IMG/VR virus record: IMGVR_UViG_3300032893_000067 | Location: 1-52,275 of that record | Reading direction: 5' to 3' (one strand) | Length of the DNA stretch: 52,275 nt | Source: a virus | Shown: positions 280 to 40,288 of the stretch, in pieces | Numbering within the stretch: the first letter of the stretch is position 1 | Layout: each line of letters opens with the position of its first letter | The notes under the pieces: generated by a model | What the model saw: only the letters and a program-made list of their open reading frames with translations | The model's database searches: none | Told to the model about the DNA's origin: nothing | Made by a program: the position numbers and the translations under genes

Positions 280-633
280 TTATTTCTCCTCATCTTTCAA
301 ATATTTTACAATTTCTTCTGCTTTTTTAGCAACATATTTTTTACCATTCTTAGTAATAATAAATCCATTTTCTGCCTTATCAACTGTTACATATCCATAA
401 ACTGGATATGTGTAGCTATAATATGATGGATATAAATATACCCAATTATAACCATTCCAATATCCTCCAGTAGTGGTACTAAATGTTGCGGTTCCAGAAG
501 CACTATTTGTTGCAGTAGTTGCAAATAAATCATTAGTTCCATTAATAACTGCAGAAGTTCCAGTTTCTAATTTATTCATTTCTTTCACTACGTTACTATC
601 TGTTAATTTTACTACATTGGTTTTATTACCCAT
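280..633 (-). CDS. Hypothetical protein, aromatic-rich centre
   Basis: This 117-residue protein begins MGNKTNVVKL. An ATG 27 nt further upstream is possible, but the chosen start has AAAGGAGAAACTA directly before it and overlaps the previous stop by 8 nt, which is typical of translational coupling here. Residues about 55 to 85 are unusually rich in Tyr, Trp and Gly, followed by a compact basic C-terminus. There is no signal peptide or membrane segment. Function unknown. Confidence 0.7.
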   Translation of the reverse strand: MGNKTNVVKLTDSNVVKEMNKLETGTSAVINGTNDLFATTATNSASGTATFSTTTGGYWNGYNWVYLYPSYYSYTYPVYGYVTVDKAENGFIITKNGKKYVAKKAEEIVKYLKDEEK

Positions 634-1081
634 TAGTTTCTCCTTTATTTTCATAACCAAGTTTTAATTCTTGAGCTTGAGAAACAAGAGTATCCATTGC
701 TTCTTCGCTTTTTTTAGCTTTCTTTTCTTCTTCCACTCTTGCTAATTCTTCACCAGCAGAATGAATGATCATAATATATTTGCTTGTAAGAATCTGATTT
801 AAAATATTAAATAATTCTTGTTCTTTCTTATCCAAAGGCTTTTTATCTGAATCTTCTATAGGAAACTTTGCTACAAGTTCTATAACTCTTTCAATGGCTT
901 TCTTATTAAGAACTTTTAGATATCGTCTCATTACAGGATAATACATGTGGCACATGGCAGCATGTGAATCCAATAAGCTTCCTTCTGAAGCCCCAGACTT
1001 TTCTTTTTCAAGCATTGCCTGTTCTAATTGTTCAGGTGTTAACTGGCTCAGATCCAGTTGCTGGTTGTTCTGTTCCGACAT
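626..1081 (-). CDS. Hypothetical charged helical protein
   Basis: This 151-residue protein has a Gln-rich N-terminus and a long Lys/Glu-rich C-terminal helix (residues about 100 to 140). It starts with MSEQNNQ inside the 3' end of the upstream gene and is translationally coupled to both neighbours. It lies in the same leftward string as the ERF recombinase, so a role in early DNA metabolism is possible, but nothing in its sequence shows this. Confidence 0.7.
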   Translation of the reverse strand: MSEQNNQQLDLSQLTPEQLEQAMLEKEKSGASEGSLLDSHAAMCHMYYPVMRRYLKVLNKKAIERVIELVAKFPIEDSDKKPLDKKEQELFNILNQILTSKYIMIIHSAGEELARVEEEKKAKKSEEAMDTLVSQAQELKLGYENKGETNG

Positions 1082-1482: not shown

Positions 1483-2073
1483 TTATTGCCAACCATTATC
1501 TTCTGTTGTTGTTTTCGGTTCTTCTTTCTTTGCTGATTTACGAAAGGTTGATTTAGTTCCATTGGCAGTTTGAGTAACATTTTCTGGGGTCTTTTGAGTT
1601 ACATCAGTTCCATTTGGAGTGTCAGTATTTAAAGTCGATGCTGAGATAGTTGAAACTTTTGTAGCTTTAGTTTGCCTATCGACTGCTGCTTCTCCATCAT
1701 CATCTTTAGCGCCAACATTTGCCATGGATTGTAGTCCATAACGTCGAGCATATGAAATGCCCGATCCTTCTGCTTGGGCGTCATTAGCTTTTGCTACTTT
1801 AATTTCTGTTAATGAACCAATGTATTCTCCAGATTCATGAAGTAGTAAAGTATTTACATAATTTTTACCATCAACAACAACTGTTGGTTGTAGTACAGCA
1901 ATTCCGTTTTTATTAAATGCAGGAAGAACTGCTTCTCTAATAGAATTCAAATCTGCAAAGGAGCTTTTAAAGAATGGATTTTTTGCTCCTTTCACCGCTT
2001 CACCCATTTCTTGTTGGGCTTTCAATAAAGCTGGTGCTAACTTTGTAATTGTTTCTGACATTGACATATTCAT
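1483..2073 (-). CDS. erf: ERF-family single-strand DNA annealing protein
   Basis: This is a recombinase that anneals complementary single strands in phage homologous recombination. The 196-residue length matches the P22 Erf class. The N-terminal ERF signature is visible: NPFFKSSFADLN at about residues 32 to 43, and further on SYARRYGL followed by the acidic DDDGEAA near residues 107 to 131. The last 60 residues are a Thr/Lys-rich linker tail. Start at AAGGAGATATGAAATG. It sits with a RecB/Cas4-like nuclease encoded 3 kb upstream, a usual pairing in phage recombination modules. Confidence 0.88.
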   Translation of the reverse strand: MNMSMSETITKLAPALLKAQQEMGEAVKGAKNPFFKSSFADLNSIREAVLPAFNKNGIAVLQPTVVVDGKNYVNTLLLHESGEYIGSLTEIKVAKANDAQAEGSGISYARRYGLQSMANVGAKDDDGEAAVDRQTKATKVSTISASTLNTDTPNGTDVTQKTPENVTQTANGTKSTFRKSAKKEEPKTTTEDNGWQ

Positions 2074-2084
2074 TTCATATCTCC

Positions 2085-2441
2085 TTACTTTGTAACTATT
2101 GCAATTCCTTCATTAAATCTTTGTTCATTAATAACTTCATAATTTAAAGATTCTAATTGATCTTTCTCAACTTCTAAAACTCCTTGGGGTAATACTAATT
2201 TATTATTAAACCATCCTGCAGTATAATTATATTTTACAACATAAGTAGAAATTTGATACTTACCATCTTTAATTTCCATAACTTGTGAATATTCAAAATC
2301 CTTACTCACATTATACTTATCTTGAATTAATCTCTTTAATCTATTTCCAGCTTCATATTTATAATTAACTTTTTTAAACTCAACTGGATTAAATTTATAA
2401 TAGATCTTTTCTGCAAGTTTGTCAATTACATTAAGAAACAT
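2085..2441 (-). CDS. Hypothetical protein
   Basis: This 118-residue soluble protein is rich in Lys, Tyr and Asn. It has a good ribosome binding site (AAGGAATAACAATG) that overlaps the last codons of the SPFH gene upstream. There are no cysteine motifs or membrane segments. Several alternating hydrophobic stretches suggest a mainly beta fold in the second half. No family recognised. Confidence 0.65.
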   Translation of the reverse strand: MFLNVIDKLAEKIYYKFNPVEFKKVNYKYEAGNRLKRLIQDKYNVSKDFEYSQVMEIKDGKYQISTYVVKYNYTAGWFNNKLVLPQGVLEVEKDQLESLNYEVINEQRFNEGIAIVTK

Positions 2442-2443
2442 TG

Positions 2444-3292
2444 TTATTCCTTAGATTGAGTTGTTTTAGTTGGAATATTGAATAACAGATTACTTCCGCT
2501 TCCCATAACTTGAGGCACAGTTCCATCCCATTTCTCAATAGCTTTGAGCATAAGAACTTTATCGGTAACTGTTTCTCTTAGAAGTTTTTGTGATTCTGCT
2601 TGTGCTTTTGCTTTTGTCAATGTTGCTTCGGCATCTCCTTTTGCTTCATTAACTTTTGCCTTTGCATCTGCAGTTGCTTTTTGTGCTGTATATTCGGCTT
2701 GTTGTGCTTGTTGATCAGCAATTTGCTTTTGTTCTACAGCATGATTAAATTCTGCGGTGAAATTAAGATTTACAATGGAAATACTTTTGACAAAGATACC
2801 ATAGTTTCCAAGACGTTCAATAAGAAGTTTATCAATATTGTCTTTAAGTTCCAAACGTTTTGTTAGAACTTCTTCGGCAGTCATTTTAGCTGTTGATGCT
2901 TTTAGAACTTCACTAACTGCTGGATCAATAACACGGTCTTTAACATCTTCTGTTCTTCCAATTGTTCTATAAATCTCTACAACTTTTGCAGGATCTAAAG
3001 TCCAGTTAAGTGCAACATCTGCTGTAACTTTTTGAAGATCTCTTGTAGCAGCTTCGCCAGTTGAATCTGTCTTTTGAATTTGAACAGATAATGTTTTAAT
3101 ACTAGAAAGAAAAGGAACTTTGAGATGAAATCCTTCTTCACGAATATCTTGTGAGACTTTACCAAGAAATACATAAACTCCTCGCTCGCCTGGGCTTACA
3201 ATCTTAAAGCTTCCAAATACTAATGGAAGTCCTACAAATACTCCTAGTGCAACTAATATTGCATTTCTAATACTTTTTATATCATTATTCAT
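2444..3292 (-). CDS. Prohibitin-like SPFH/band-7 membrane protein
   Basis: The 282-residue protein has one N-terminal membrane segment (about residues 10 to 28), then a band-7 domain (about 30 to 185, including the SPGERGVYVFLGKV start), then an Ala/Lys/Glu-rich coiled coil (about 185 to 240). The C-terminus (KWDGTVPQVMGSG) is like that of bacterial prohibitin homologues. Such proteins form ring assemblies in the inner membrane and in bacteria bind and control FtsH protease (HflK/HflC). That role for this phage protein is inference. It overlaps the next gene by ATGA and stands in a cluster of membrane and exported proteins. Confidence 0.9.
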   Translation of the reverse strand: MNNDIKSIRNAILVALGVFVGLPLVFGSFKIVSPGERGVYVFLGKVSQDIREEGFHLKVPFLSSIKTLSVQIQKTDSTGEAATRDLQKVTADVALNWTLDPAKVVEIYRTIGRTEDVKDRVIDPAVSEVLKASTAKMTAEEVLTKRLELKDNIDKLLIERLGNYGIFVKSISIVNLNFTAEFNHAVEQKQIADQQAQQAEYTAQKATADAKAKVNEAKGDAEATLTKAKAQAESQKLLRETVTDKVLMLKAIEKWDGTVPQVMGSGSNLLFNIPTKTTQSKE

Positions 3293-3465
3293 TGATTTAC
3301 TCCCATATAAATTAATTGTCTTGTTACAATTTGTACAAAAAATAATCCTAAAATTGCTAGAGCATGAAATGGAGAAATTCTAAATAAAAAGTCTCCGATA
3401 AAAAACCATACAAATACTGAAGCTATTACATTTAAAATTAAGGCAATTATTAATCCAATCTTCAT
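3289..3465 (-). CDS. Small two-helix membrane protein
   Basis: This 58-residue protein consists almost entirely of two hydrophobic helices (about 3 to 25 and 31 to 50). I use the ATG giving MKIGLIIAL, which follows GGTGGAATAAA and is 1 nt beyond the upstream stop; a longer in-frame start would run back through the neighbour gene. It ends in a 4-nt overlap with the SPFH gene, so the two are probably co-translated and could be membrane partners. Confidence 0.65.
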   Translation of the reverse strand: MKIGLIIALILNVIASVFVWFFIGDFLFRISPFHALAILGLFFVQIVTRQLIYMGVNQ

Positions 3466-3466
3466 T

Positions 3467-3766
3467 TTATTCCACCGTAAATAATCTATTACTTGCTTCA
3501 ATTCTAAAGCGTTCAAAAATGATATCTCTATCCAAATCACCAGATGTAATCTTTTCTGGCTTTGAGACAGCACCAGTTTCTAGATCAAATGTAATTTCAA
3601 CTACATACCACCAGCCATTTGCTTTATCTTTTGCAACTCCTAATGCTTTATTCTTTAAAGCAACTTGTGTGACTACTTGAAGTTCTTCTGGGGCACTGGG
3701 TTGTACGGGATTTGCTTGCATAGGCGTGGGCATTGTTGTTTCCTCAACTTTCTTTTTACGAGCCAT
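3467..3766 (-). CDS. Hypothetical soluble protein
   Basis: This 99-residue protein starts MARKKKVEETT after AAAAGGAGTAATAAAGAA. The N-terminal 30 residues are Pro/Gln/Met-rich and look disordered, followed by a compact domain with a WWYVVEITFD strand and basic ends. A start 21 codons upstream would add a short hydrophobic segment but has no ribosome binding site. Family unknown. It is separated by a 72-nt gap from the cytochrome-like gene upstream. Confidence 0.6.
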   Translation of the reverse strand: MARKKKVEETTMPTPMQANPVQPSAPEELQVVTQVALKNKALGVAKDKANGWWYVVEITFDLETGAVSKPEKITSGDLDRDIIFERFRIEASNRLFTVE

Positions 3767-3838
3767 TTCTTTATTACTCCTTTTGAATAGCTTTCTAATT
3801 AATAATATTATAGTCGCTAATATAGTCATTTGTCAACA

Positions 3839-4177
3839 TTATTCTTTCGAACCTTGATCAATCCAGTCTTTGATCATTTTTCGCTCATTTTCTGGCATAT
3901 CTTTTCCCAATGGCATACTTCTTATTTCCCAAATTCTATAACGAATTTGAACTCTTTTATCATAAGCTGTTTTATAATCTAGCCAACTTGGAAGATTATA
4001 TGGATTATTAAGATTATGACATGGAAGACAGTTCTTTTTAAAAATTGATCTTGCGTGTTTTGTATAAGTTAAAGTTTCAGTATTGGGCATTGTATCTATA
4101 TATTCTCTAGTTTTTATACCAAACTTATATCCTATAATGAAAAATACAATTAATATTGGAACTACTAATTGTTTCAC
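3839..4177 (-). CDS. Membrane-anchored c-type cytochrome-like heme protein
   Basis: This 112-residue protein has an N-terminal membrane anchor (about 3 to 17) and then a single C50-L-P-C53-H54 heme-attachment motif in an external domain. A Met at 88 or 94, in the segment SMPLGKDMPENER, is placed like the axial ligand of small c-type heme domains, and the ending (KMIKDWIDQG) matches those domains. Heme attachment would need the host cytochrome c maturation system in the periplasm. The start is GTG, overlapping the stop of the subtilase gene (GTGA). A phage-encoded c-heme protein is rare; function unknown. Confidence 0.72.
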   Translation of the reverse strand: MKQLVVPILIVFFIIGYKFGIKTREYIDTMPNTETLTYTKHARSIFKKNCLPCHNLNNPYNLPSWLDYKTAYDKRVQIRYRIWEIRSMPLGKDMPENERKMIKDWIDQGSKE

Positions 4178-4905
4178 TTTAAATTCTCACACATTTGTTT
4201 TAATAACATGTTGCTATAATTTGCAGCGGCTTGAGAAGTTCCTGACATGTATCCAAATAAGTTATTAGGAAATGTTGAATAAATTTCAGTACCTTGCATC
4301 CATTTCATATTATAAAGTCCATAATTGCTTGTAATATTTCTTCGGCCATCTTTTAATAGATTACCAATTGGAATAAGATTGACTATATGATATTTGGCTG
4401 GAAAGTAATCGTTACCTTTTTGAGATAGATCCATTCCATTATTCCCGGCGGCCACAACTATTTTAGTTCCAAGATCTGATATCTCTTTTAATACAACATA
4501 TTCTTCAATACTTGGTTCTATTCCTCCAGATGAATAATTAATAAGATCAAAGTGTTTCTTCAAAGCCAATTGAAAGCATTTGACACTATCTTTAATAGCT
4601 TCAGATTCTTTGTAATCTGGAATTCTTTTCTCTACATATCTACAGGATTGCATTATAACTTGATTACAGACGTCCTTTAGAATAAGGCCTGCGATGTGGG
4701 TGCCGTGGTACATAGAATCTTCGTAATTGTAGCCTGGGGAGTCTTTAACATGCTTTTTAATCTCAAGATGTGATAAGTCTACCCCTGTATCAACTATTAA
4801 TACATTAATTTCTTTCCCCTCACAACTATGCGGAAGTAAAAAGAATATAAAAGCCATTACAAATAATATAGCGCCTATAGATATTTGTCTTAAAAACTCA
4901 GTCAA
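4174..4905 (-). CDS. Exported or membrane-anchored subtilisin-like serine protease (S8)
   Basis: The 243-residue protein has an N-terminal hydrophobic segment (about 8 to 25) that is a signal or anchor. It carries a complete catalytic set: Asp39 in IVDTGVD, His67 in HGTHIAG, oxyanion Asn155 in AAGNNG, and Ser224 in SGTSQAA. It is shorter than typical subtilases (about 275 residues) and has no pro-domain that I can see. The start is TTG, preceded by AAGGAAGAAAGA and overlapping the nuclease gene stop. The target is unknown; the position next to the heme and SPFH proteins suggests envelope action. Confidence 0.88.
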   Translation of the reverse strand: MTEFLRQISIGAILFVMAFIFFLLPHSCEGKEINVLIVDTGVDLSHLEIKKHVKDSPGYNYEDSMYHGTHIAGLILKDVCNQVIMQSCRYVEKRIPDYKESEAIKDSVKCFQLALKKHFDLINYSSGGIEPSIEEYVVLKEISDLGTKIVVAAGNNGMDLSQKGNDYFPAKYHIVNLIPIGNLLKDGRRNITSNYGLYNMKWMQGTEIYSTFPNNLFGYMSGTSQAAANYSNMLLKQMCENLK

Positions 4906-6056
4906 TCTTTCTTCCTTTTATCTTCTAATTCAATTAAATCGTCATCAATTCCATACCAGCATTTATTATAATATGGGCAGCGATATTCTCCACTTCCACA
5001 AGCATTTAGATTAGGTCCAAAATGTTCATTAGTTATACCTTCATTGGCCTTATCAAATGTCTCTAATACTAGATTCTCCGCTGTTTCAGATACTTTGTCA
5101 AGAATAATGTCTATTTTACATTCAGGTGTAATAGTTTCATTCCATTCACCATTGCATCGTTCAAATCTTGGGACCCCGGCTGGGCTTGGTTCAGCAAGAC
5201 CTATTGCATTATTGCAGGTCTTGTGCCTTCCACCAGTTCCATCATATCCACATTTAGAGCATATCTTTATTCTATTCTTAACTATATTCTTATACATTAC
5301 AAAGAATGCAACGCCATCTAGCTTTAATTCTTCTTTCTCGGCATGATAATATCCAATAAGCTGTTGACTTTTAGATGCAGCATCTTCTTCATAGTCCCTA
5401 GCAGATGTCTTATTATCTCCAAGATATCGTTTATCATCTTCCCATAGAACAACTAAATCCAATATTCCATTTACTACATCACCATTATTGTTTTCTAGCT
5501 TAGTTCTTTTCTGGATTGCAATGACTTCTTTGATGCGGGGCAATACTTTTTCGGCGTAACTCTTTATCATTATATGGCCTTTTCGTCTTAATGATAACCA
5601 ATTAGCCATTGAATAAAGTTTCTTTTCTTCTATTGGAAGGTTTCTAAATCCTATAGTAGCTTTCATTTCTAATATAGTATCAAGTATTTCTTTTAAAGTT
5701 TTAGTCGATTGATAATTGAGTTTAGCTTTTAATTCTTCAAATTTTTCATAATCTTCTTTTAATAGGAGTTCTTCATCAAAATCAGTTTTTGCATAAACAA
5801 TCATAGTTGCTTCGGGTATATAAATGTCTTCTCCATTTACATCGTTATATCTGAATGACTTATCAAACTTTTGTATAGCCTCTTCTAAATTCTTTGTCTT
5901 TAATAAATGGTTTAAACCAAAGTCAATTGCAGATCCATAAAGAAAGAATGCTCGATACTCTTTTGGACGTAGGCGTTTCTTGTAATGATAAAAATATTTG
6001 CGAGGGCATTCTGTGTAAAGCCTGATTTGAGAATTTGAAAGCTTATTCTTTTTCAT
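4902..6056 (-). CDS. RecB/Cas4-like PD-(D/E)XK nuclease
   Basis: This 384-residue protein starts with the RecB-family lead-in (SNSQIRLYTECPRKYFYHY). It shows the PD-(D/E)XK core as GILDLVVLW followed by DNKT. Cys17 together with the C-terminal cluster CGSGEYRCPYYNKC is the arrangement that binds an iron-sulphur cluster in Cas4 and AddB nucleases. A second CxxC...C set around residues 265 to 300 could bind zinc. It probably acts as a 5' or 3' exonuclease with the ERF annealing protein. ATGA overlaps link it to both neighbours. Confidence 0.85.
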   Translation of the reverse strand: MKKNKLSNSQIRLYTECPRKYFYHYKKRLRPKEYRAFFLYGSAIDFGLNHLLKTKNLEEAIQKFDKSFRYNDVNGEDIYIPEATMIVYAKTDFDEELLLKEDYEKFEELKAKLNYQSTKTLKEILDTILEMKATIGFRNLPIEEKKLYSMANWLSLRRKGHIMIKSYAEKVLPRIKEVIAIQKRTKLENNNGDVVNGILDLVVLWEDDKRYLGDNKTSARDYEEDAASKSQQLIGYYHAEKEELKLDGVAFFVMYKNIVKNRIKICSKCGYDGTGGRHKTCNNAIGLAEPSPAGVPRFERCNGEWNETITPECKIDIILDKVSETAENLVLETFDKANEGITNEHFGPNLNACGSGEYRCPYYNKCWYGIDDDLIELEDKRKKD

Positions 6057-6412
6057 ATAATAGTCGATTTAAATCCATTATCATCTGTATAATAAACTTC
6101 TTTAATATCTAATGTCTTAAGCATTTGAAGACATGAAGAACATGGGAATGCTTTTGCCATTCTACCGCCGGGTGTTTCTCTAAAAATATAAATACTACAA
6201 TCTTTAAAGTTATCTAACTTTGAATTCAATATTGCATGGAATTCTGCATGAACCATTTTAAATTTATGCGGGGATCTTGTATGTGTTTTTAATTGATTAA
6301 CTCCAAAGCTAATAGGCTTGTTTTTATAAACTAATACACATCCCATTTTATGTTTGTGATGGTTTGAAAGTTTAGATATCTTTCTTGCCAAATCAAAAAA
6401 GTTCTTATTCAT
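6053..6412 (-). CDS. Cytidine/deoxycytidylate deaminase-family protein
   Basis: This 119-residue protein has the zinc-dependent deaminase signature: H55-A-E57 and P90-C91-S-S-C94, with the glutamate as proton shuttle. Phage members of this fold usually deaminate dCMP to supply dUMP for thymidylate synthesis, but the short length and lack of the usual dCMP-binding region leave the substrate open. It overlaps both neighbours by 4 nt in the leftward operon. Confidence 0.82.
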   Translation of the reverse strand: MNKNFFDLARKISKLSNHHKHKMGCVLVYKNKPISFGVNQLKTHTRSPHKFKMVHAEFHAILNSKLDNFKDCSIYIFRETPGGRMAKAFPCSSCLQMLKTLDIKEVYYTDDNGFKSTII

Positions 6413-8314: not shown

Positions 8315-8869
8315 TCAGGGATTTAGATCTATTCCTAAGGACAGCGTATGGTTTGTTAGGACTGGGGTTATAATGTTATTAAGCTTCAGGTATTTATTAC
8401 CGTCGAAATGAACTAGGAATATGTTAGCTTCAAGTCCCATTAAAGGGACAGCGGACCAACCGTGTTCATTATGAACTGAATAGGGTTCAATGCCAAGTTT
8501 GGTAAATTCATTATCATCTTGGAAATAAGTGCCTAATAAAAATCCTAAATACAATTGATTAGTTCTAAGACCGACTGAATAAGTTCCACCATAGATTTGT
8601 TTACCAATAGAATTACTTCCTTCAAATAGTCTAACAGTTTGATAAACTTCACTTTCATCAAAGTTATATTGTATTCCAAATAGTGGATTGAATATTAGTT
8701 TTCCATCTTGAGACCATTTAGTTTGATATTGGGAAGATGCTCCATCTGCAATTAAATGATAGGTAACTCCACCGCCAATAGTTTCAAAGCTATTTGCTCT
8801 AACTGTTTTATAAACAAATGTTATTAATAAAAATCCTATAAGAATTAAAAAGAAATCATTCTTGTTCAT
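8315..8869 (-). CDS. Exported beta-barrel-like protein
   Basis: The start used is MNKNDFFLIL (184 residues), preceded by GGGAGTCTGAAA. It has an N-terminal hydrophobic segment (about 5 to 20), then alternating amphipathic strands with many Gly, Tyr and Phe (for example QIYGGTYSVGLRTNQLYLGF), ending LTNHTLSLGIDLNP. This pattern suggests a small outer-membrane barrel. I considered the lipid A enzymes PagP and PagL but do not see their catalytic motifs. It is convergent with 7967..8314 and could work with it. Confidence 0.6.
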   Translation of the reverse strand: MNKNDFFLILIGFLLITFVYKTVRANSFETIGGGVTYHLIADGASSQYQTKWSQDGKLIFNPLFGIQYNFDESEVYQTVRLFEGSNSIGKQIYGGTYSVGLRTNQLYLGFLLGTYFQDDNEFTKLGIEPYSVHNEHGWSAVPLMGLEANIFLVHFDGNKYLKLNNIITPVLTNHTLSLGIDLNP

Positions 8870-9029
8870 TTTCAGACTCCCATATGAATAAGCTATTTCC
8901 ATAAACAGGAGGTAGCATTCCTTCTTTTTCTATAAGATCCAATAGTTCTTGGGCCATTACATCTGGATACTTAATATCATTTTGCCATAAATAATCTGCA
9001 ATTTTGTTTATCATTTCACTTCGTTTCAT
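8856..9029 (-). CDS. Small acidic hypothetical protein
   Basis: This is a 57-residue protein starting MKRSEMINKIADYLW after TTTTGGAGTCTAAAA. An ATG 12 codons earlier is in frame but lacks a ribosome binding site. It is predicted helical. It overlaps both neighbours by 14 nt. No family recognised. Confidence 0.62.
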   Translation of the reverse strand: MKRSEMINKIADYLWQNDIKYPDVMAQELLDLIEKEGMLPPVYGNSLFIWESENEQE

Positions 9030-9793: not shown

Positions 9794-10053
9794 TTCAGAT
9801 ACTCCTTTAAAGACAAATCATCTAGAATTCCTTTAACAGTTTCAGGCTCACATTTAAATCTTTCACATATATCTTTTAACATAACTTGTTTACAATTGTC
9901 ATAGTAACTTTTATAAACGTCTATATGCAATACTGGATTCTCTTTATTCAATACATCTTGTAATTGATCTGTTAAATCTTTTGTAATAACTTTAAAGTGT
10001 TGCACATTGTGGATTAGGTCTCTAATCACCCATTCTTCTAATTCAATACTCAT
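9790..10053 (-). CDS. Hypothetical protein with possible helix-turn-helix end
   Basis: This is an 87-residue acidic helical protein. The last 30 residues (MLKDICERFKCEPETVKGIL) look like a degenerate helix-turn-helix, so a small regulatory role is possible. It starts 1 nt after the upstream stop, with GGTGAATTGAA before the ATG. Confidence 0.58.
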   Translation of the reverse strand: MSIELEEWVIRDLIHNVQHFKVITKDLTDQLQDVLNKENPVLHIDVYKSYYDNCKQVMLKDICERFKCEPETVKGILDDLSLKEYLK

Positions 10054-10054
10054 T

Positions 10055-10321
10055 TCAATTCACCGTTTCATTTCCAGAGCTATTAAAAGTATTCAATACA
10101 GATTCTTGAATTCTATCTGAAATAATTATAACCATATTAGTTGCGAAATAGTTATCCAATTCTTCTTTTGTTAGATTTTTTGCGAATTCTAGTCCTAGTT
10201 CTAAACAATCATCGGGCGCGAATTTTTCGCCGGTCAATATTTTTTCAGAGACGAGTTTCATAAACTTCATTTCAAGTTCATTTAATTTATTACCTAAATC
10301 TAAAGTCTTTTGTATTTTCAT
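10055..10321 (-). CDS. Hypothetical helical protein
   Basis: This is an 88-residue protein of predicted helices, with a good ribosome binding site (GAGGATTAATATATG). It contains no motif I recognise. Its codon use and its tight spacing to its neighbours fit an expressed early gene. Confidence 0.6.
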   Translation of the reverse strand: MKIQKTLDLGNKLNELEMKFMKLVSEKILTGEKFAPDDCLELGLEFAKNLTKEELDNYFATNMVIIISDRIQESVLNTFNSSGNETVN

Positions 10322-10324
10322 ATA

Positions 10325-10633
10325 TTAATCCTCAAAGTTTAATGATTCATAAAAATCATCGTCATTATCATCGTAATCATCTTCATCTTCAAATAGATTA
10401 TCTGAAACATAATTCTCAATATATTCAATATCTTTTTCTGTTAATTGTTTATTAACTACTTTATTATTTTCATCATAAGCAATATATTCTATATCTTTTA
10501 CAAAGCCTCTAATCTCTCCACGGTTTCCATCAATATCATCGCCGTATTTTTCTTTTGTAAAAGTTGCTTTTGCTTCTACAAATACATCGCCTAAATTTTC
10601 TGAACCAAATTCAAATTCGATTAATTGTTTCAT
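10325..10633 (-). CDS. Hypothetical protein with very acidic tail
   Basis: The start at MKQLIEFEFG (102 residues) follows TAGGAGTATTAAA; a far upstream start in this frame would run through the neighbouring gene. The first 70 residues look like a beta-rich domain. The last 25 are almost all Asp/Glu with aromatic residues, a DNA-mimic-like or protein-binding tail. Function unknown. Confidence 0.63.
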   Translation of the reverse strand: MKQLIEFEFGSENLGDVFVEAKATFTKEKYGDDIDGNRGEIRGFVKDIEYIAYDENNKVVNKQLTEKDIEYIENYVSDNLFEDEDDYDDNDDDFYESLNFED

Positions 10634-10643
10634 TTTAATACTC

Positions 10644-10844
10644 CTATAGTTTAGAAATATGACCTTTAATATTATTCCAAAAGTTCTTTGTACTTTCATC
10701 AACGGCGGACTTTGACATATGATCGGCTTTTGAAAGTGCTGTCTCTTTATTTCCGACACTTGCAACAAATCCTCTTGCAAAGTCTAAAGCATCTTGAACT
10801 TTAAGTTTCTTTGGTTGAACATCTTTTTTTCCAGCATTAGGCAT
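10644..10844 (-). CDS. Small basic hypothetical protein
   Basis: This 66-residue protein starts MPNAGKKDVQ after AAAGGAGATTCAA. It is Lys-rich and probably helical. It overlaps the previous gene by 8 nt. No family recognised. Confidence 0.62.
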   Translation of the reverse strand: MPNAGKKDVQPKKLKVQDALDFARGFVASVGNKETALSKADHMSKSAVDESTKNFWNNIKGHISKL

Positions 10845-11118
10845 TTGAATCTCCTTTCATTTCTTTTGGAAGTCTTGTACGAACTTCGTCTTGAAATTGA
10901 ACTCCAAGTTCTATAAGAGCTTTCTTAACTTGTTTCTTTGTTTCCGTTAAATGAATTCCTACGCCAAATTTTAATTCATTGCCGGGGTCTCTAACTTCTT
11001 CAATTTGCCATGCATTATTTGGATAAATAGTTACATAAACAAATTTATTAATAGCTAAAAGTCTTTTTGAATTTGTCAATGTTCCGTCTTCATTTCTCTT
11101 ATAAGTAACCCTAGTCAT
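10837..11118 (-). CDS. Hypothetical protein
   Basis: This 93-residue protein has a well-formed start (AAAGGAGATATTAAATG). It is basic, with a likely beta-strand N-terminal half and a helical C-terminal half. A 4-nt overlap joins it to the gene upstream. No family recognised. Confidence 0.62.
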   Translation of the reverse strand: MTRVTYKRNEDGTLTNSKRLLAINKFVYVTIYPNNAWQIEEVRDPGNELKFGVGIHLTETKKQVKKALIELGVQFQDEVRTRLPKEMKGDSNA

Positions 11119-11477
11119 TTAATATCTCCTTTATTATAAGACATTTTTCTATAAATTTCTAATGGATTTAAATGTTTATTTTTTATTCCAAATTTTACAC
11201 TTTTATTTTTTTCAATTAAAGTTTTAAATTGAATAAGCAATTCAGGATTTACGTTTTTATTTTTTAATACGGTTGATTTAAAAACTCTATATTTAAGATT
11301 TCCGGGATGTTTTTTATTAAATTTAATTGTTTTAATTTTACTTTTTTTCAGATATTCCCGGCGGCCAATTTTTTCACACCATTTATACCATTTTAAAGTT
11401 GCTTCAGAAATAATAGGTTTTATTGAATATTTTTGAACCCATTTAGATTTTGAATAGCGAGTATTTGGCATAGTCAT
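11115..11477 (-). CDS. Hypothetical strongly basic protein
   Basis: This 120-residue protein is about one quarter Lys/Arg. A start with TTTTAGGAGATGTAAA precedes MTMPNTRYSK. Its composition fits nucleic-acid binding, but I see no defined motif. It is followed by a 30-nt AT-only gap. Confidence 0.6.
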   Translation of the reverse strand: MTMPNTRYSKSKWVQKYSIKPIISEATLKWYKWCEKIGRREYLKKSKIKTIKFNKKHPGNLKYRVFKSTVLKNKNVNPELLIQFKTLIEKNKSVKFGIKNKHLNPLEIYRKMSYNKGDIK

Positions 11478-11507
11478 TTTACATCTCCTAAAATATTATA
11501 ATACAAT

Positions 11508-11747
11508 TTAAATTTTTTTGCTATAAATAAATGAACCTTTAAACTCTCCAAATTCTGCATAGTTATGATTATTTCTTTCTAATTCAACTACAGCAATTTC
11601 TAATTCATCTAAGTTTACATTGGTTAATTTCTTTTCCCATAATGCTCGGACCCAAACAAATAAGTCCTCAACTGTTGGGCAATATCTCGCGCCAGATACG
11701 TTATAAACAAAGATATATTCTTCTTCAGATACTTTAAAAAGTTTCAT
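11508..11747 (-). CDS. Hypothetical acidic protein
   Basis: This is a 79-residue protein with Trp and Tyr scattered through it and a mixed alpha/beta pattern. AAAGGAGCAAATAAATG gives a clear start directly after the stop of the hexapeptide-repeat gene. No family recognised. Confidence 0.62.
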   Translation of the reverse strand: MKLFKVSEEEYIFVYNVSGARYCPTVEDLFVWVRALWEKKLTNVNLDELEIAVVELERNNHNYAEFGEFKGSFIYSKKI

Positions 11748-12416
11748 TTATTTGCTCCTTTTGCTTTGTAAATGTTGAACTTTTCTTATAGCTTTCATGA
11801 GATTGTAATAAGCGTGACATTGATCTTCTGTCAATCCTTCTTTTTTACCTATTTCTAAATATTTCTCTTTCCATTCTTTCATTGAATAGAAATAACAACC
11901 AATTTGAACGCCTTTTGGAAGTGAAGTAAAAAGCCAATTTAAGTTTGTTATATTTGAGCATTGATGAAATTTCTGGACCCGTGCTTTGCCAGAGACCTGT
12001 GCTTTGCCAGAGACCTGTGCATCGCCAAAGACCCGTGCTTTGCCAAAGACCCATGCATTGCCAGAGACCTGTGCATCGCCAAAGACCCATGCATTGCCAA
12101 AGACCTGTGCATCGCCAAAGACCCGTGCTTTGCCAGAGACCCGTGCTTTGCCAGAGACCCGTGCATCGCCAAAGACCCATGCATTGCCAGAGACCTGTGC
12201 ATCGCCAAAGACCCGTGCTTTGCCAGAGACCTGTGCATCGTCAGAGACCCATGCATTACCACTTTGATTCAAATTACTTTCTTTTTCTATATATCCACCT
12301 AAATCACCTTTTGTTATATAAGAAAAAGATATTAATGCGCGGATTCTAAACATTTTAATACCAAAAAATGTTTTTTCTGTTTCTAATGCTAATTCAAATT
12401 TTTTAGAATTGTTCAT
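11748..12416 (-). CDS. Hexapeptide-repeat (left-handed beta-helix) protein
   Basis: The 222-residue protein has a 52-residue N-terminal cap, then 16 perfect-length hexapeptides (residues about 53 to 148; pattern G-[NDK]-A-[WRQ]-V-[SF]), then a 74-residue C-terminal domain. The repeat matches the left-handed parallel beta-helix of LpxA-type folds, with small Ala/Gly and Val at the corners. No acyltransferase His is visible in the repeat, so a structural or binding role is more likely than catalysis. The repeat DNA is a near-perfect 18-bp array whose copy number is likely to change. Confidence 0.75.
   Translation of the reverse strand: MNNSKKFELALETEKTFFGIKMFRIRALISFSYITKGDLGGYIEKESNLNQSGNAWVSDDAQVSGKARVFGDAQVSGNAWVFGDARVSGKARVSGKARVFGDAQVFGNAWVFGDAQVSGNAWVFGKARVFGDAQVSGKAQVSGKARVQKFHQCSNITNLNWLFTSLPKGVQIGCYFYSMKEWKEKYLEIGKKEGLTEDQCHAYYNLMKAIRKVQHLQSKRSK
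11973..12260 (-). repeat. Tandem array of sixteen 18-bp units
   Basis: Sixteen 18-nt units encode the hexapeptides above. Units differ mainly at three positions and recombine as blocks, so the array looks built by repeated unequal exchange. The base choice avoids stop codons in all six frames throughout the array. Confidence 0.9.
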
Positions 12417-19804: not shown

Positions 19805-20263
19805 ATGAAAGCTATATTTTATAAAGAACATGTTATTAATAAAAATCATTATATTGAATATGAACTAAAAATTTGTCATAAATGCAACAAAACCAAATCT
19901 TGGAAAGACTTTAGTAGGAAGATAAAAGGTATTTTTGGTCTTCAACCTAATTGTAAAGAATGTTCTAAAAAATGGTGGTCTGAAGATCCTATTCGTCAAA
20001 AAAAGATTCAAAAAAATTCAAAGTTAAAAGCAAAATTTAATTTAACATTAGATCAATATAATGAAATTTTGACTCATCAAAATGGGAAATGTGCTATATG
20101 TCACAAAGTACAAAATAATGTTTCATTAGCTGTAGATCATTGTCATAAAACTGGAAAAATTCGTGGTCTATTATGTGGACCATGTAATCAATCCATTGGT
20201 CTTCTTAAAGAGGACTTACAAATTATTGAAAATTTAAAAGATTATTTAGAGAAATATAAATGA
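19805..20263 (+). CDS. HNH endonuclease, endonuclease VII type
   Basis: The 152-residue protein has two parts. An N-terminal zinc module has C24, C27, C50 and C53. A C-terminal recombination endonuclease VII core has CAIC at 96 to 99, VDHCH at 110 to 114, and LLCGPCN at 122 to 128. Free-standing phage enzymes of this type are usually homing endonucleases; a junction-resolving role is possible. It lies immediately after a late-type motif and overlaps the VTC gene by ATGA. Confidence 0.85.
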   Translation: MKAIFYKEHVINKNHYIEYELKICHKCNKTKSWKDFSRKIKGIFGLQPNCKECSKKWWSEDPIRQKKIQKNSKLKAKFNLTLDQYNEILTHQNGKCAICHKVQNNVSLAVDHCHKTGKIRGLLCGPCNQSIGLLKEDLQIIENLKDYLEKYK

Positions 20264-21078
20264 ATAATAAACTTGAAAATAACGAAATTGATCTAAAAAG
20301 AACCGAAGATAAGTATATTCTAGATAAATCCCAATTACAAATAGTAAAACATAAAATTGAAACCTACCTACCACCTTATTATCCAGATAAAGGTGTTATT
20401 TATTGTATTAATAAATCAATTTATTTTGATTCTCCAGACCTAACTTTCCTTAAACAACATCTAAATAAAGTCGATGATAGACGTAAGATTCGTATAAGAA
20501 CCTATGCTCCTAATGGCAAATGGAACAATATTTATTTTATTGAAATCAAGTCTAAATCAGATGGAAAAAGTATTAAAACAAGAATTGAACTTACTCCAAA
20601 AGCATTTCAAGAAGTAATGAGAACAAATCAAATTCCAATTGATGCAGATCTCATAGAGCTTAATAAAGATGTCCCAAAAGACCAGCTATTACAGCGTGCA
20701 AAACTTATAAATTACACAATGTTAATTAATAAAGTTAGTCCTGTATGTGAAGTTACTTATAAGAGGTATGCCTACCAAGAACACGAATCATTACGTGTCA
20801 CTATTGATTCAGAAATAAAAGTTCGACCACTTAAAATGATCAAATTTAATGTTATAGAAGATTTAAAGAACCAAGATCTTTGGGATGAACTAAAAGAATA
20901 TGGTGAGAAGTTCTATAATCAAGACAATTTTCTTCTAGAAGTTAAACATGAAAAGAATAATATTCCACAATGGCTAGAAGATTTAATTGAAAAATTTGAT
21001 GGTGAATGCCAGGGCTTTTCAAAATATGTCTGGGGCATGTTTCAAATAATGAGTAATACTCTTAAACTTTTAAAATAA
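20260..21078 (+). CDS. VTC-domain protein (polyphosphate polymerase type)
   Basis: This 272-residue protein matches the VTC/CYTH-like tunnel fold that makes polyphosphate from ATP. Visible markers are EDKYIL near residue 16, KSIYFDSPDLTFL near 51, RRKIRIRTY near 77, FIEIKSKSDGK near 94, CEVTYKRYAY near 165, LLEVKHE near 227 and FSKYVWGM near 256. These are the Lys/Arg- and Glu-rich strands that line the tunnel. Bacterial relatives act at the membrane, but no membrane segment is present. Polymerase versus triphosphatase activity cannot be settled from sequence. It is rare in phages. Confidence 0.8.
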   Translation: MNNKLENNEIDLKRTEDKYILDKSQLQIVKHKIETYLPPYYPDKGVIYCINKSIYFDSPDLTFLKQHLNKVDDRRKIRIRTYAPNGKWNNIYFIEIKSKSDGKSIKTRIELTPKAFQEVMRTNQIPIDADLIELNKDVPKDQLLQRAKLINYTMLINKVSPVCEVTYKRYAYQEHESLRVTIDSEIKVRPLKMIKFNVIEDLKNQDLWDELKEYGEKFYNQDNFLLEVKHEKNNIPQWLEDLIEKFDGECQGFSKYVWGMFQIMSNTLKLLK

Positions 21079-22284: not shown

Positions 22285-22569
22285 ATGGAATTGAGAAAAA
22301 GCGCACCATTGATACTGTTTTGTCTCTATTTTGCTAAACTTGCTCTTTTAGCACCAACTTATACAGATGCAGCTATTTTATTAATTTTAGGTGCAACTGC
22401 GGGTTTATTTGAATTTAAATCAAATGAAAAGAAAATAAAAGATCTTGAGCAACTTTTAGTAAATCAACAAAAAGAATTAAGTAAAACAACTGAAGAAATT
22501 TTAGCAATTAAATCTCATGTTGCTAGTATTAAACTTGCAACAAATATTAAATCAACTTCATTTAGATAA
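22285..22569 (+). CDS. Small membrane protein with coiled coil; holin candidate
   Basis: This 94-residue protein has two hydrophobic helices (about 7 to 24 and 28 to 43) followed by a coiled coil (about 48 to 75). It starts after TTTAGGAGTTAAAG. Two membrane helices plus a cytoplasmic charged tail fit class II holins, and the endolysin is only 350 bp away on the other strand. The position ahead of terminase genes would equally fit an unrelated membrane role. Confidence 0.6.
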   Translation: MELRKSAPLILFCLYFAKLALLAPTYTDAAILLILGATAGLFEFKSNEKKIKDLEQLLVNQQKELSKTTEEILAIKSHVASIKLATNIKSTSFR

Positions 22570-22571
22570 TT

Positions 22572-23147
22572 ATGAAAAAACAATGTATTAAATGTAATAA
22601 AAATAAAGAACTAATAGATTTTCATAAAAATAAATCTAAAAAAGATGGGTTTAATAGTGAATGTAAAAATTGTTATAGTGAGTATTCAAAAAAATATAGA
22701 CAAATTAATAAAAAGAAAATTGCACAAAAAAGAAAAGAATTCTATAAAAATAATGCAGATGAAATGAAAAGAAGAGTTCAATACTATCGAGATAATACAT
22801 CTTATTCAAATTATAATGAACTTTGGAAACAAGAAAATAAAGAATATATCAGTCAGTATAATAAGAATTATTTAATTAATAACAGAGGAAAATGTAACGC
22901 TAAGGCAGTTAAAAGACAAATAGAAAAATTACAGGCAACTCCTAAATGGTTAACAAAAGATCAATTAAAACAAATTGAAGAATTTTATATATTAGCTAAA
23001 GAATTAGAATGGTTAAGTAAAGAAAAATTACATGTTGATCATATAATGCCGCTGCATGGTAAAAATTCTTGTGGATTACATGTACCTTGGAATTTACAAA
23101 TATTACCAGCATCATTAAATATTAAAAAGAGAAATAAAATTTTATGA
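22572..23147 (+). CDS. HNH homing-type endonuclease
   Basis: The 191-residue protein begins with a zinc module (CIKCNKNKELIDF ... CKNC) and a long Lys-rich linker. It ends with an HNH core: HVDHIMPLHG, then HVPWNLQILP, then a final NIKKRNK. It sits between a membrane protein gene and the terminase genes and overlaps the next gene by ATGA, a usual site for a free-standing homing endonuclease. Confidence 0.83.
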   Translation: MKKQCIKCNKNKELIDFHKNKSKKDGFNSECKNCYSEYSKKYRQINKKKIAQKRKEFYKNNADEMKRRVQYYRDNTSYSNYNELWKQENKEYISQYNKNYLINNRGKCNAKAVKRQIEKLQATPKWLTKDQLKQIEEFYILAKELEWLSKEKLHVDHIMPLHGKNSCGLHVPWNLQILPASLNIKKRNKIL

Positions 23148-23554
23148 GTCAAATTTTGCAGCATATTTTACAAATCAAAGAAATGAATGACCTTAGAGAA
23201 TATGCTCAAGCTCAATATAATACAATAATGCAGTTGAATAAAAAAGTTCAACGATTAGAAGAAGAGCGAGATCATTTAAAATCTTTATTAGAACAAACTG
23301 TTCCTGTAATTAAACCAGATCAACAAATTATTGAAGCAGATACTGATCAAGAATTAATTTGTAAATTAGAATTACAAAAGCTTCGTGAAATTTCTTCTAT
23401 TCGTGAATTAACTTATGAAGAATGTAAGAAAGTAGAAATTTATTCAAAGATTCTAGGCCAAAAAATTGATAAAAAAAATGAAAGAGAAGTTGAAAAAATT
23501 GATACAAAAGACTTACTAAAGCTTGTTGAAAAAATTGATGATAATGGAAAATGA
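23144..23554 (+). CDS. Probable terminase small subunit (by position)
   Basis: This 136-residue protein has a coiled coil at about residues 25 to 50, an acidic linker and a helical C-terminal half rich in Lys/Glu. It lies directly before and overlaps the terminase large subunit gene by 11 nt. Small terminase subunits are variable helical proteins in this position that bind packaging sites. I see no certain DNA-binding motif, so the call rests on context. Confidence 0.5.
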   Translation: MSQILQHILQIKEMNDLREYAQAQYNTIMQLNKKVQRLEEERDHLKSLLEQTVPVIKPDQQIIEADTDQELICKLELQKLREISSIRELTYEECKKVEIYSKILGQKIDKKNEREVEKIDTKDLLKLVEKIDDNGK

Positions 23555-38329: not shown

Positions 38330-38673
38330 TTAATTTCCTTTTTTAATTTTTCTATTTCTTTAAGAGCATAATCAACTTCATGTTCATCGTGTCTCATCGC
38401 TACTTCATAATCTTGTAAATTCCAATTATCTCTAGATTCGCCATTATTATAAATTGCTTCTAAAGCAACTATTGCAATATTAAGCATTTCTATTGCTTTC
38501 CAATACTTTATAGCTACTTCATTTAAATCATCTAATTTAATAATTGGATTTTCATCAGACCATTTGGTTCCGGCATAAAATCCACATGCTCTTAAATCAT
38601 CAGAATCTTTCATATCATTTTTTAATTTTAGATATTCTTCTATAGCCTTATCTATTTGTTCTTTTCTTGTCAT
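38326..38673 (-). CDS. Hypothetical helical phage protein
   Basis: This 115-residue, mostly helical protein with GFYAGTKWSDEN near residue 31 is of a kind seen in other phages and lacks a known role. A 4-nt overlap joins it to the PagL-like gene. Confidence 0.6.
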   Translation of the reverse strand: MTRKEQIDKAIEEYLKLKNDMKDSDDLRACGFYAGTKWSDENPIIKLDDLNEVAIKYWKAIEMLNIAIVALEAIYNNGESRDNWNLQDYEVAMRHDEHEVDYALKEIEKLKKEIK

Positions 38674-39179
38674 AAATTAAACCCCACATTAAATAGAAAG
38701 AAATCTCTTCCCTTATTAATCTGGCTCATTCCGGCATTACTAAAATGTCTATATTCAAATCCGCACCATTTACCTTTATTATCTTTAATACCAAATCCTA
38801 ACTCTTCTGTAAATTCAAATTGTGTTCCAAGTTGTGAATCTACTTGAGTAATATAAGATGCACCAAAATAAGTTTCGCCATAAAAATAACCCGGCTCCAC
38901 TCTAATACCCAAAGAATCACTTACAAATCCTGAGCTACGTTTTAATTTATCGGCATCTAAAGAATCAAACCATGCCCCAAGATCAAACTTATTATTAAAT
39001 ATTCTGCTAATAGGATTTATATAGCCAAGTGATATATATTTGGTTTCAGCCACACCATCTTGATTTGGCTGGTCAAATCCAAGGCCATACTTAAAAGTAA
39101 TATCTCCGGCATATAGATTTGTCATATATAACTGTCCAAAAAGCATGATTATGGTCATGTATATATAACATTTTTTCAT
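38670..39179 (-). CDS. PagL-like lipid A 3-O-deacylase (acyloxyacyl hydrolase family)
   Basis: This 169-residue predicted outer-membrane barrel has a signal peptide (about 1 to 24, ending YAG). The signature EYRHFSNAG near the C-terminus contains His145 and Ser147 of the PagL catalytic triad; Asp159 stands where PagL has Glu. PagL enzymes remove the 3-O acyl chain from lipid A. The phage may remodel the host surface to hinder rival phages or host immune signals. The start is the ATG overlapping the RNA ligase stop (TGATG) with GGAG upstream. Confidence 0.7.
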   Translation of the reverse strand: MKKCYIYMTIIMLFGQLYMTNLYAGDITFKYGLGFDQPNQDGVAETKYISLGYINPISRIFNNKFDLGAWFDSLDADKLKRSSGFVSDSLGIRVEPGYFYGETYFGASYITQVDSQLGTQFEFTEELGFGIKDNKGKWCGFEYRHFSNAGMSQINKGRDFFLFNVGFNL

Positions 39180-40288
39180 CAATGAAACTCCGATTGTTCT
39201 TTAGACAAATATTCTTCACTTATAAGTTTTAATAGTTTTCTACCAATAGAACATTCTGTTTCTATTAGCGGTTTTATTACAACACCTTCTCTAACTTTCT
39301 GTTCTGGAACAAATACAGAATCACCTTTTGTTAAGGTTTTTGCTGCTTCTTTATTAAATGGTCCTCTATAAAATTCTGGAACTATATCAAATCCTCTTTC
39401 TTTTGCAATTGTTTGAAATTCATCAACATTTGCATAATGTGATTCAGTTTCATTCTGATATTTAAGATCAAATACAACTAATTTGTGTTCACCATTTTTA
39501 CATCCATATGTATAATTTTTTTGAATACCATCTCCATAAAGCTCGCCATACCAAATTTCACCAGGCTTTACTTTATTTTTGGCATCATATTTTTCAAGTA
39601 CTTTTCCATAGACATCTTCACCATAAAACCCTGTATAATTCCATCGTTGTTGTAATTGGACATTATTAGATCCATATACCCATTCAAATTTGGGCGATAG
39701 CCCAAGCCATTTTAATAGCTTTCTCCATGGATTATTAGCTACATATGGAACCATTCCAAATCTAATATTACTTCCATGTACTTTTTCTGTAATGGATACT
39801 TGTTCGCCTTCTTCAAATAAGTCTGGATACCATTTAAAGTTATCAATGCCGCCATATTTATGGAAGAATGGATTCTCTTTTGGTTTATCTCTTTTTTTAA
39901 CAGCAGCTTGTTGATAATTAGCTTGTGGAGGTTCATATTTAGTTATTCCAAGAACTTCTGCTAGATCTGTTTCTAGTTCATAGTTTAATGGGGTATCAAG
40001 TAACTCTGGATCAACTATTAGGCCCTGAGAATATTCTCCTCTAATCTTAATTTGTCTTACACGATGTTTATTAAGTTTAATTTTTGAATCTGCACCAAAT
40101 AGTTTATTCTCAATATTTTGAGGAAGGATAGAATCAATTGGCACATAAACTACTTTATCACCGGGAGTATATCGTCCTTTAGAAACAATTACATTAAAAT
40201 CATATACTTTAACAAATTCTAAAGCAGTTGCATTATTATGGGGTAATATTTCCTTAATTGTTGTTAGAGGAATTTTATATTCAGACAT
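39179..40288 (-). CDS. RNA ligase, Rnl5/DraRnl-like with N-terminal OB domain
   Basis: This 369-residue enzyme joins RNA ends using ATP. The N-terminal 115 residues form an extra OB-like domain (VKVYDFNVIVSKGRYTPGDK), as in the Deinococcus ligase type. The nucleotidyltransferase domain has motif I EKVHGSN with Lys169 as the AMP site, a GELYGDG motif, motif IV EGVVIKP, and a C-terminal KLLKLISEEY for motif V. It follows the polynucleotide kinase gene, so the pair can repair cut RNA, most likely host tRNA cleaved by anticodon nucleases. Confidence 0.88.
   Translation of the reverse strand: MSEYKIPLTTIKEILPHNNATALEFVKVYDFNVIVSKGRYTPGDKVVYVPIDSILPQNIENKLFGADSKIKLNKHRVRQIKIRGEYSQGLIVDPELLDTPLNYELETDLAEVLGITKYEPPQANYQQAAVKKRDKPKENPFFHKYGGIDNFKWYPDLFEEGEQVSITEKVHGSNIRFGMVPYVANNPWRKLLKWLGLSPKFEWVYGSNNVQLQQRWNYTGFYGEDVYGKVLEKYDAKNKVKPGEIWYGELYGDGIQKNYTYGCKNGEHKLVVFDLKYQNETESHYANVDEFQTIAKERGFDIVPEFYRGPFNKEAAKTLTKGDSVFVPEQKVREGVVIKPLIETECSIGRKLLKLISEEYLSKEQSEFH

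Follow-up and report, generated by a model that had tools for sequence, protein, structure and literature searches.

Predicted exported c-type cytochromes in a phage lineage and the variable cargo of its recombination cassette

That phages alter the energy metabolism of their hosts is well established where photosynthesis is concerned, but few reports deal with respiration. Cyanophages carry the plastocyanin gene petE, and cytochrome c oxidase has been proposed to accept electrons from its product (PMC10452541). Within the open-licence literature, phage soxD is the closest precedent that we found for a c-type cytochrome. The sulfur-oxidation genes soxC and soxD occur on phage contigs, where SoxD, itself a c-type cytochrome, is rare and cytochrome motifs are missing in both phage copies (PMC8190135). 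Marine viral fractions have yielded viral sequences for subunits of cbb3 oxidase (PMC3474794), and a study of nitrogen-cycle phage genes observed no cytochromes in its phages (PMC8115048).

Here we describe c-type cytochrome genes with predicted exported products in an IMG/VR virus record of 52,275 bases, a phage genome fragment analysed over its whole length (the window), and in five related viral contigs (G030, G043, G045, G054 and G055). Like plastocyanin and other photosynthetic electron-transport genes of cyanophages, these genes would encode single-electron carriers whose predicted effect is to maintain electron flow or divert it. Plastocyanin is however a copper protein in cyanobacteria, whereas the proteins described here are predicted to carry heme c, are apparently respiratory and occur in phages of which a Silvanigrella phage is a distant relative. 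Phage SoxD is an enzyme subunit of a sulfur pathway; in contrast, the present cytochromes are predicted stand-alone carriers with intact motifs, found on six contigs. With a small, intact cytochrome that recurs in a defined lineage, the idea that a phage equips its respiring host with an electron carrier can be put to a simple test.

The cytochrome gene of the window

The window cytochrome gene (3839-4177, minus strand) has a GTG start and specifies 112 aa, with a hydrophobic helix at residues ~4-20, CLPCH at residues 50-54 and a proposed distal Met88. The initial annotation had read the product as a membrane-anchored c-type heme protein, and our results agree: by homology it is a single-heme c-type cytochrome, and its N-terminal hydrophobicity predicts the anchor. 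Searched by itself, the protein remained under the Pfam cut-offs (PF13442, E=0.0038; PF14376, E=0.016; 18 bits vs 27). A genome scan returned 15 bacterial cytochrome domains (L006-L020), mostly from Verrucomicrobiota, that match it at 32-38% identity and keep the CxxCH, an Arg, the distal Met-Pro and a C-terminal W..G, so that the match is well beyond chance. These domains were picked by short exact peptides, apparently WLDYKTAY mostly, and the taxonomy of the matches is therefore biased, although the remaining conserved positions are independent of that choice. The window protein, which contains the WLDYKTAY peptide, has the CxxCH, the proposed distal Met-Pro and the C-terminal helix in common with these Verrucomicrobiota/Planctomycetota domains. 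The bacterial domain is, however, mostly the first part of a protein of ~270-300 aa with a further C-terminal part, and in one case is fused within a 1077-aa protein, whereas the phage version is a single domain with its own anchor.

The CxxCH was invariant in 17 sequences of the window cytochrome's family (family A) and in a second family (family B, below). The proposed distal Met88-Pro89 was likewise invariant in the family A alignment (A6) and the MP is kept in family B. The predicted structure of the window cytochrome was of moderate quality, with a pLDDT of 74, and the only solved chains with a Z of 2 or more against this model were 3a9f, 7o38 and 2dge, all of them c-type cytochromes and all weak matches (Z of 2.9 or less).

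A zinc-ribbon reading of the CxxCH protein was rejected, as it has no second CxxC pair, is predicted to be exported and shows cytochrome homology. Among the CxxCH ORFs of the window, of the Silvanigrella phage record and of 22 relatives, only four, the window's included, resembled exported cytochromes; nearly all the others were HNH/zinc-ribbon-like or spurious short ORFs. A search for family A in 145 genomes of the phylum to which L006 belongs gave 8 matches, and a clear donor was not found among them since seven were weak. A plasmid search gave marginal matches only, on two Bacteroidota plasmids.

Cytochromes across the phage lineage

No nucleotide match for the first 25 kb of the window was found among 50,697 phage records. 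IMG/VR single-protein pattern scans with the cytochrome, the subtilase and the SPFH protein of the window also returned no relatives, nor did the first cytochrome alignment scan. The lineage was revealed only by alignment of the portal protein, which identified a large IMG/VR group with portal identities of about 44-77%. This phage lineage is widespread. Its longest members reach about 74-88 kb, from which we conclude that the window is a fragment. The relatives are mostly fragments as well; G016, G044 and G050 were covered to 80 kb, and all counts given here refer to the sequence so covered. The nearest isolate found was the Silvanigrella aquatica phage CP017838 (terminase 32% and capsid 29% identity), a weak hint that makes a Bdellovibrionota host plausible for the lineage. 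In one relative (L002, IMGVR_UViG_3300025121_000002), the terminase gene (9824-11806) has an apparent in-frame intein-like insertion, its product being 660 aa long vs 493 aa in the window.

In a search of 50 related records, the G030 cytochrome was about 40-41% identical to that of the window and occupied the same slot. In G030 the exonuclease gene is followed by a 206-aa gene and then, in order, by the genes for the cytochrome, the soluble protein, the annealing protein, a homologue of the window gene at 626-1081, the primase/helicase and the DNA polymerase. Family B, which is more clearly class I, was recovered from G043 and G045 by an ORF scan, and a viral scan added G054 and G055. Both family B proteins tested were over the cut-off for Pfam Cytochrom_C (PF00034; E=1.6e-8 and 5e-8), and all four have Sec-like signals. 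The lineage portal gene was present in G043, G045 and G055 at 48-51% identity. In G054 (36 kb) no portal was detected, and the 183-aa gene next to its cytochrome gene is common to G043 and G045. All six phage cytochromes have an N-terminal hydrophobic segment by hydropathy, which predicts export, and all six have the CxxCH and a downstream Met-Pro.

PF13442 finds a cytochrome in 5 of the 50 related records; with so few carriers, one of them (G054) lacking a detected portal, the gene is optional in the lineage. This optional occurrence would fit a captured host gene without benefit, or assembly contamination. We consider such an origin highly improbable. The gene is intact and has phage genes on both sides in the window, G030, G043, G045 and G055, and it holds an orthologous slot in G030 at 40% identity. 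Furthermore, dN among the cytochromes was 0.31-0.68 against a dS of 1.7 or more, which is saturated or nearly so (0.58 and 1.95 for the window-G030 pair), and by this comparison the phage cytochromes are under purifying selection. An intact gene with phage neighbours and such selection has the sequence features of a phage auxiliary metabolic gene. No match to the window, G043 or G055 cytochromes was found by tblastn in 50,697 annotated phage genomes, and PHROGs holds no family that matches them.

A recombination cassette with variable cargo

The initial annotation had described five leftward and mostly overlapping genes at 2444-4905 (SPFH, two-helix, soluble, cytochrome and subtilase), adjoining early nucleic-acid genes. 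All five are present on the minus strand, and the ORF coordinates confirm overlaps of 4 nt at three places (4902/4905, 4174/4177 and 3289/3292). The ORF map and the Pfam families bear out the early setting of the cytochrome, SPFH and subtilase genes. The subtilase gene is preceded by a gene for a PD-(D/E)XK (Cas4/exonuclease-like) nuclease (4902-6056, minus strand; PF12705, E=4.7e-11), and the next gene of the early block encodes a dCMP/cytidine deaminase (6053-6412, minus strand; PF00383, E=2.2e-15). On the other side of the SPFH gene are an ORF for a 118-aa protein (2085-2441, minus strand), with no family in Pfam or PHROG searches, and then the gene for an Erf-like ssDNA-annealing protein (1483-2073, minus strand; Pfam ERF, E=4e-22; phrog_2324, E=2.8e-40). 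Downstream of the latter lies a conserved gene of the recombination cassette (626-1081, minus strand) with relatives in 7 near-complete genomes.

These five genes had been proposed to form a single envelope module acting on protease control, respiration or superinfection exclusion. Their tight spacing on a common strand is in keeping with this proposal, as is an effect of SPFH complexes on E. coli respiration (PMC12005517). Co-occurrence was tested by profile searches of fetched records, which included 13 near-complete relatives. All 13 have the exonuclease and seven have the soluble protein, whereas the subtilase was found in four (G016, G031, G033 and G055), the SPFH protein in two (G031 and G038) and the cytochrome in two (G030 and G055). 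G031 combines the subtilase with SPFH, and G055 the subtilase with a family B cytochrome; none of the 13 has cytochrome, SPFH and subtilase together. The initial annotation had itself named lack of co-occurrence as evidence against the module, and this is largely what the relatives show. The other loss that it had named, that of CxxCH or catalytic residues in homologues, is not seen in the alignments, where both are kept.

The soluble protein also has a different affiliation. Its gene (3467-3766, minus strand; 99 aa) was listed as an ORF at 3467-3829, but the ATG at 3766 is preceded by AGGAG and is the likely start. The N-terminus is disordered and the C-terminal part is beta-beta-alpha, with a model pLDDT of ~90 in the C-terminal half. 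In seven relatives (G019, G016, G031, G033, G030, G037 and G038) the gene lies between those of the exonuclease and the annealing protein, a position that assigns it to a recombination cassette and not to an envelope cluster. The small two-helix membrane protein (3289-3462, minus strand; 57 aa from a likely ATG at 3462 within a listed ORF at 3289-3573) forms a repeated pair with SPFH, seen in one relative, G031, between the soluble and annealing proteins as in the window. Such pairing would suit a joint module, but the absence of the cytochrome-SPFH-subtilase set from every relative and the cassette position of the soluble gene make a five-protein module quite unlikely. From these gene distributions, the region is a conserved recombination cassette (exonuclease, soluble protein and annealing protein) with variable cargo, and the module idea is corrected by separating the two. 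A known defence system was discarded as an explanation, as padloc gave weak matches only.

SPFH and subtilase are, by the same distributions, separate cargo that is independently distributed among the relatives. Both are known phage genes, with 568 of 50,697 annotated phage records containing an SPFH gene and 26, mostly from Bacillus phages, a subtilase gene. The SPFH assignment of the prohibitin-like membrane protein (2444-3292, minus strand; 282 aa) is secure (Pfam Band_7, E=8e-37, 127 bits vs a cut-off of 23.6; phrog_200, E=1.1e-56). A true HflC or HflK was rejected, the scores being under the equivalog cut-offs (hflC 53.7 vs 134.4 bits, hflK 46.1 vs 159.4). In Burkholderia phage CSP3, orf75 of the SPFH/Band 7 family has been described as a moron gene alongside pagP (PMC10269572). 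The window protein is of the same family as phrog_200 and CSP3 orf75, and differs by its pairing with the small two-helix gene inside a recombination cassette. It probably modulates membrane proteases or membrane order in an HflK/C-like manner. A joint effect with the cytochrome is possible given the respiratory link in E. coli, although the gene distribution does not require one.

The subtilisin with an intact triad that had been proposed for 4174-4905 (minus strand; TTG start behind AAGGAAGAAAG) is likewise secure as an S8 family member (Peptidase_S8, E=1.3e-18, 67.7 bits vs 21.8). It aligns to subtilisin BPN' (E=1.7e-14), and comparison with three lineage relatives showed no change at the catalytic D/H/S positions or at the oxyanion Asn. 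It belongs to the same peptidase family and size class as other phage subtilases (phrog_3677; Bacillus phages such as Goe3), but differs from those of Bacillus phages by an N-terminal membrane segment, from which it is predicted to be exported or anchored. It is probably a protease of envelope proteins. In G033 (22294-23172, minus strand) and G016 (79244-79966, minus strand), a predicted exported, trypsin-like S1-type serine protease gene adjoins the subtilase gene, giving two secreted protease types.

Proposed role of the cytochrome and other genes of the window

The cytochrome genes of the six contigs point to a phage contribution to the host respiratory chain. Respiration, one of the targets named by the initial annotation, is a sensible one. 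By analogy with the cyanophage carriers, we think it fairly likely that the cytochrome is an exported, host-matured electron carrier that supports or reroutes respiration in the infected cell; its export, heme loading, redox role and benefit are what we infer from the conserved features described above. As cargo of an early recombination/replication cassette, the window cytochrome would be produced alongside the early replication genes and exported via the host Sec pathway. Its N-terminal helix would keep it anchored at the periplasmic face of the inner membrane, and the host cytochrome c maturation system would attach heme c. Small periplasmic or membrane-anchored class I cytochromes are one-electron carriers. 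The phage protein could accordingly carry electrons singly from one host respiratory complex to another, or deliver them to an acceptor in the periplasm, and respiration and ATP or reducing power would be sustained or redirected while the phage replicates. Among the window genes, none was recognised as a respiratory partner.

The same protein might instead act as an inhibitor or electron sink, binding the docking sites of the bc-complex or the oxidase and slowing respiration, which would weaken host defence or exclude co-infecting phages that need membrane potential. The membrane anchor of the window protein and its place next to the envelope cargo SPFH and subtilase would fit such a role, and the genome encodes a PagL lipid A deacylase at another site, which suggests an interest in envelope and receptor control. 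The conserved CxxCH and proposed distal Met however argue for a redox-active protein, and family B has no obvious retained anchor and resembles ordinary soluble class I cytochromes. We therefore regard inhibition as unlikely. Small periplasmic class I cytochromes also serve cytochrome c peroxidase partners, and the phage protein could in principle pass electrons to a host peroxidase and shield infected cells from oxidative damage. A peroxidase gene was not recognised in the window, and this use of the cytochrome seems rather improbable.

For the preferred reading, that of a respiratory electron carrier, the two families would mean that the lineage gained exported c-type cytochromes at least twice. 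Only tentatively do we extend this to a widespread lineage, perhaps in Bdellovibrionota, that repeatedly acquired such cytochromes to take over host respiratory electron flow. If true, this would be a respiratory counterpart to the cyanophage photosynthesis genes.

Several other genes were noted. The PagL-type lipid A 3-O-deacylase of the window (38670-39182, minus strand; E=1.1e-12) has relatives in G035 and G037 and no match in annotated phages, and may change the host surface so as to hinder other phages. A protein resembling an outer-membrane beta-barrel (8315-8902, minus strand) has a hydrophobic segment at its N-terminus, no Pfam family and a weak relative in G040. A VTC domain protein of the polyphosphate-polymerase kind (20260-21078, plus strand; PF09359, E=1.4e-39) matched 1 of 50,697 phage records, at 29% identity, and no convincing PHROGs family. 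A protein built on a short-period repeat (VSGNAWVFGDAQ...; 11748-12416, minus strand) matches the YdcK beta-solenoid, and the repeat opens long frames in several other frames. Finally, G055 has many small tandem paralogues with a common terminal motif, FDxELEELL..., around 57500-63300 and 80000-83000, which represent an expanded family.
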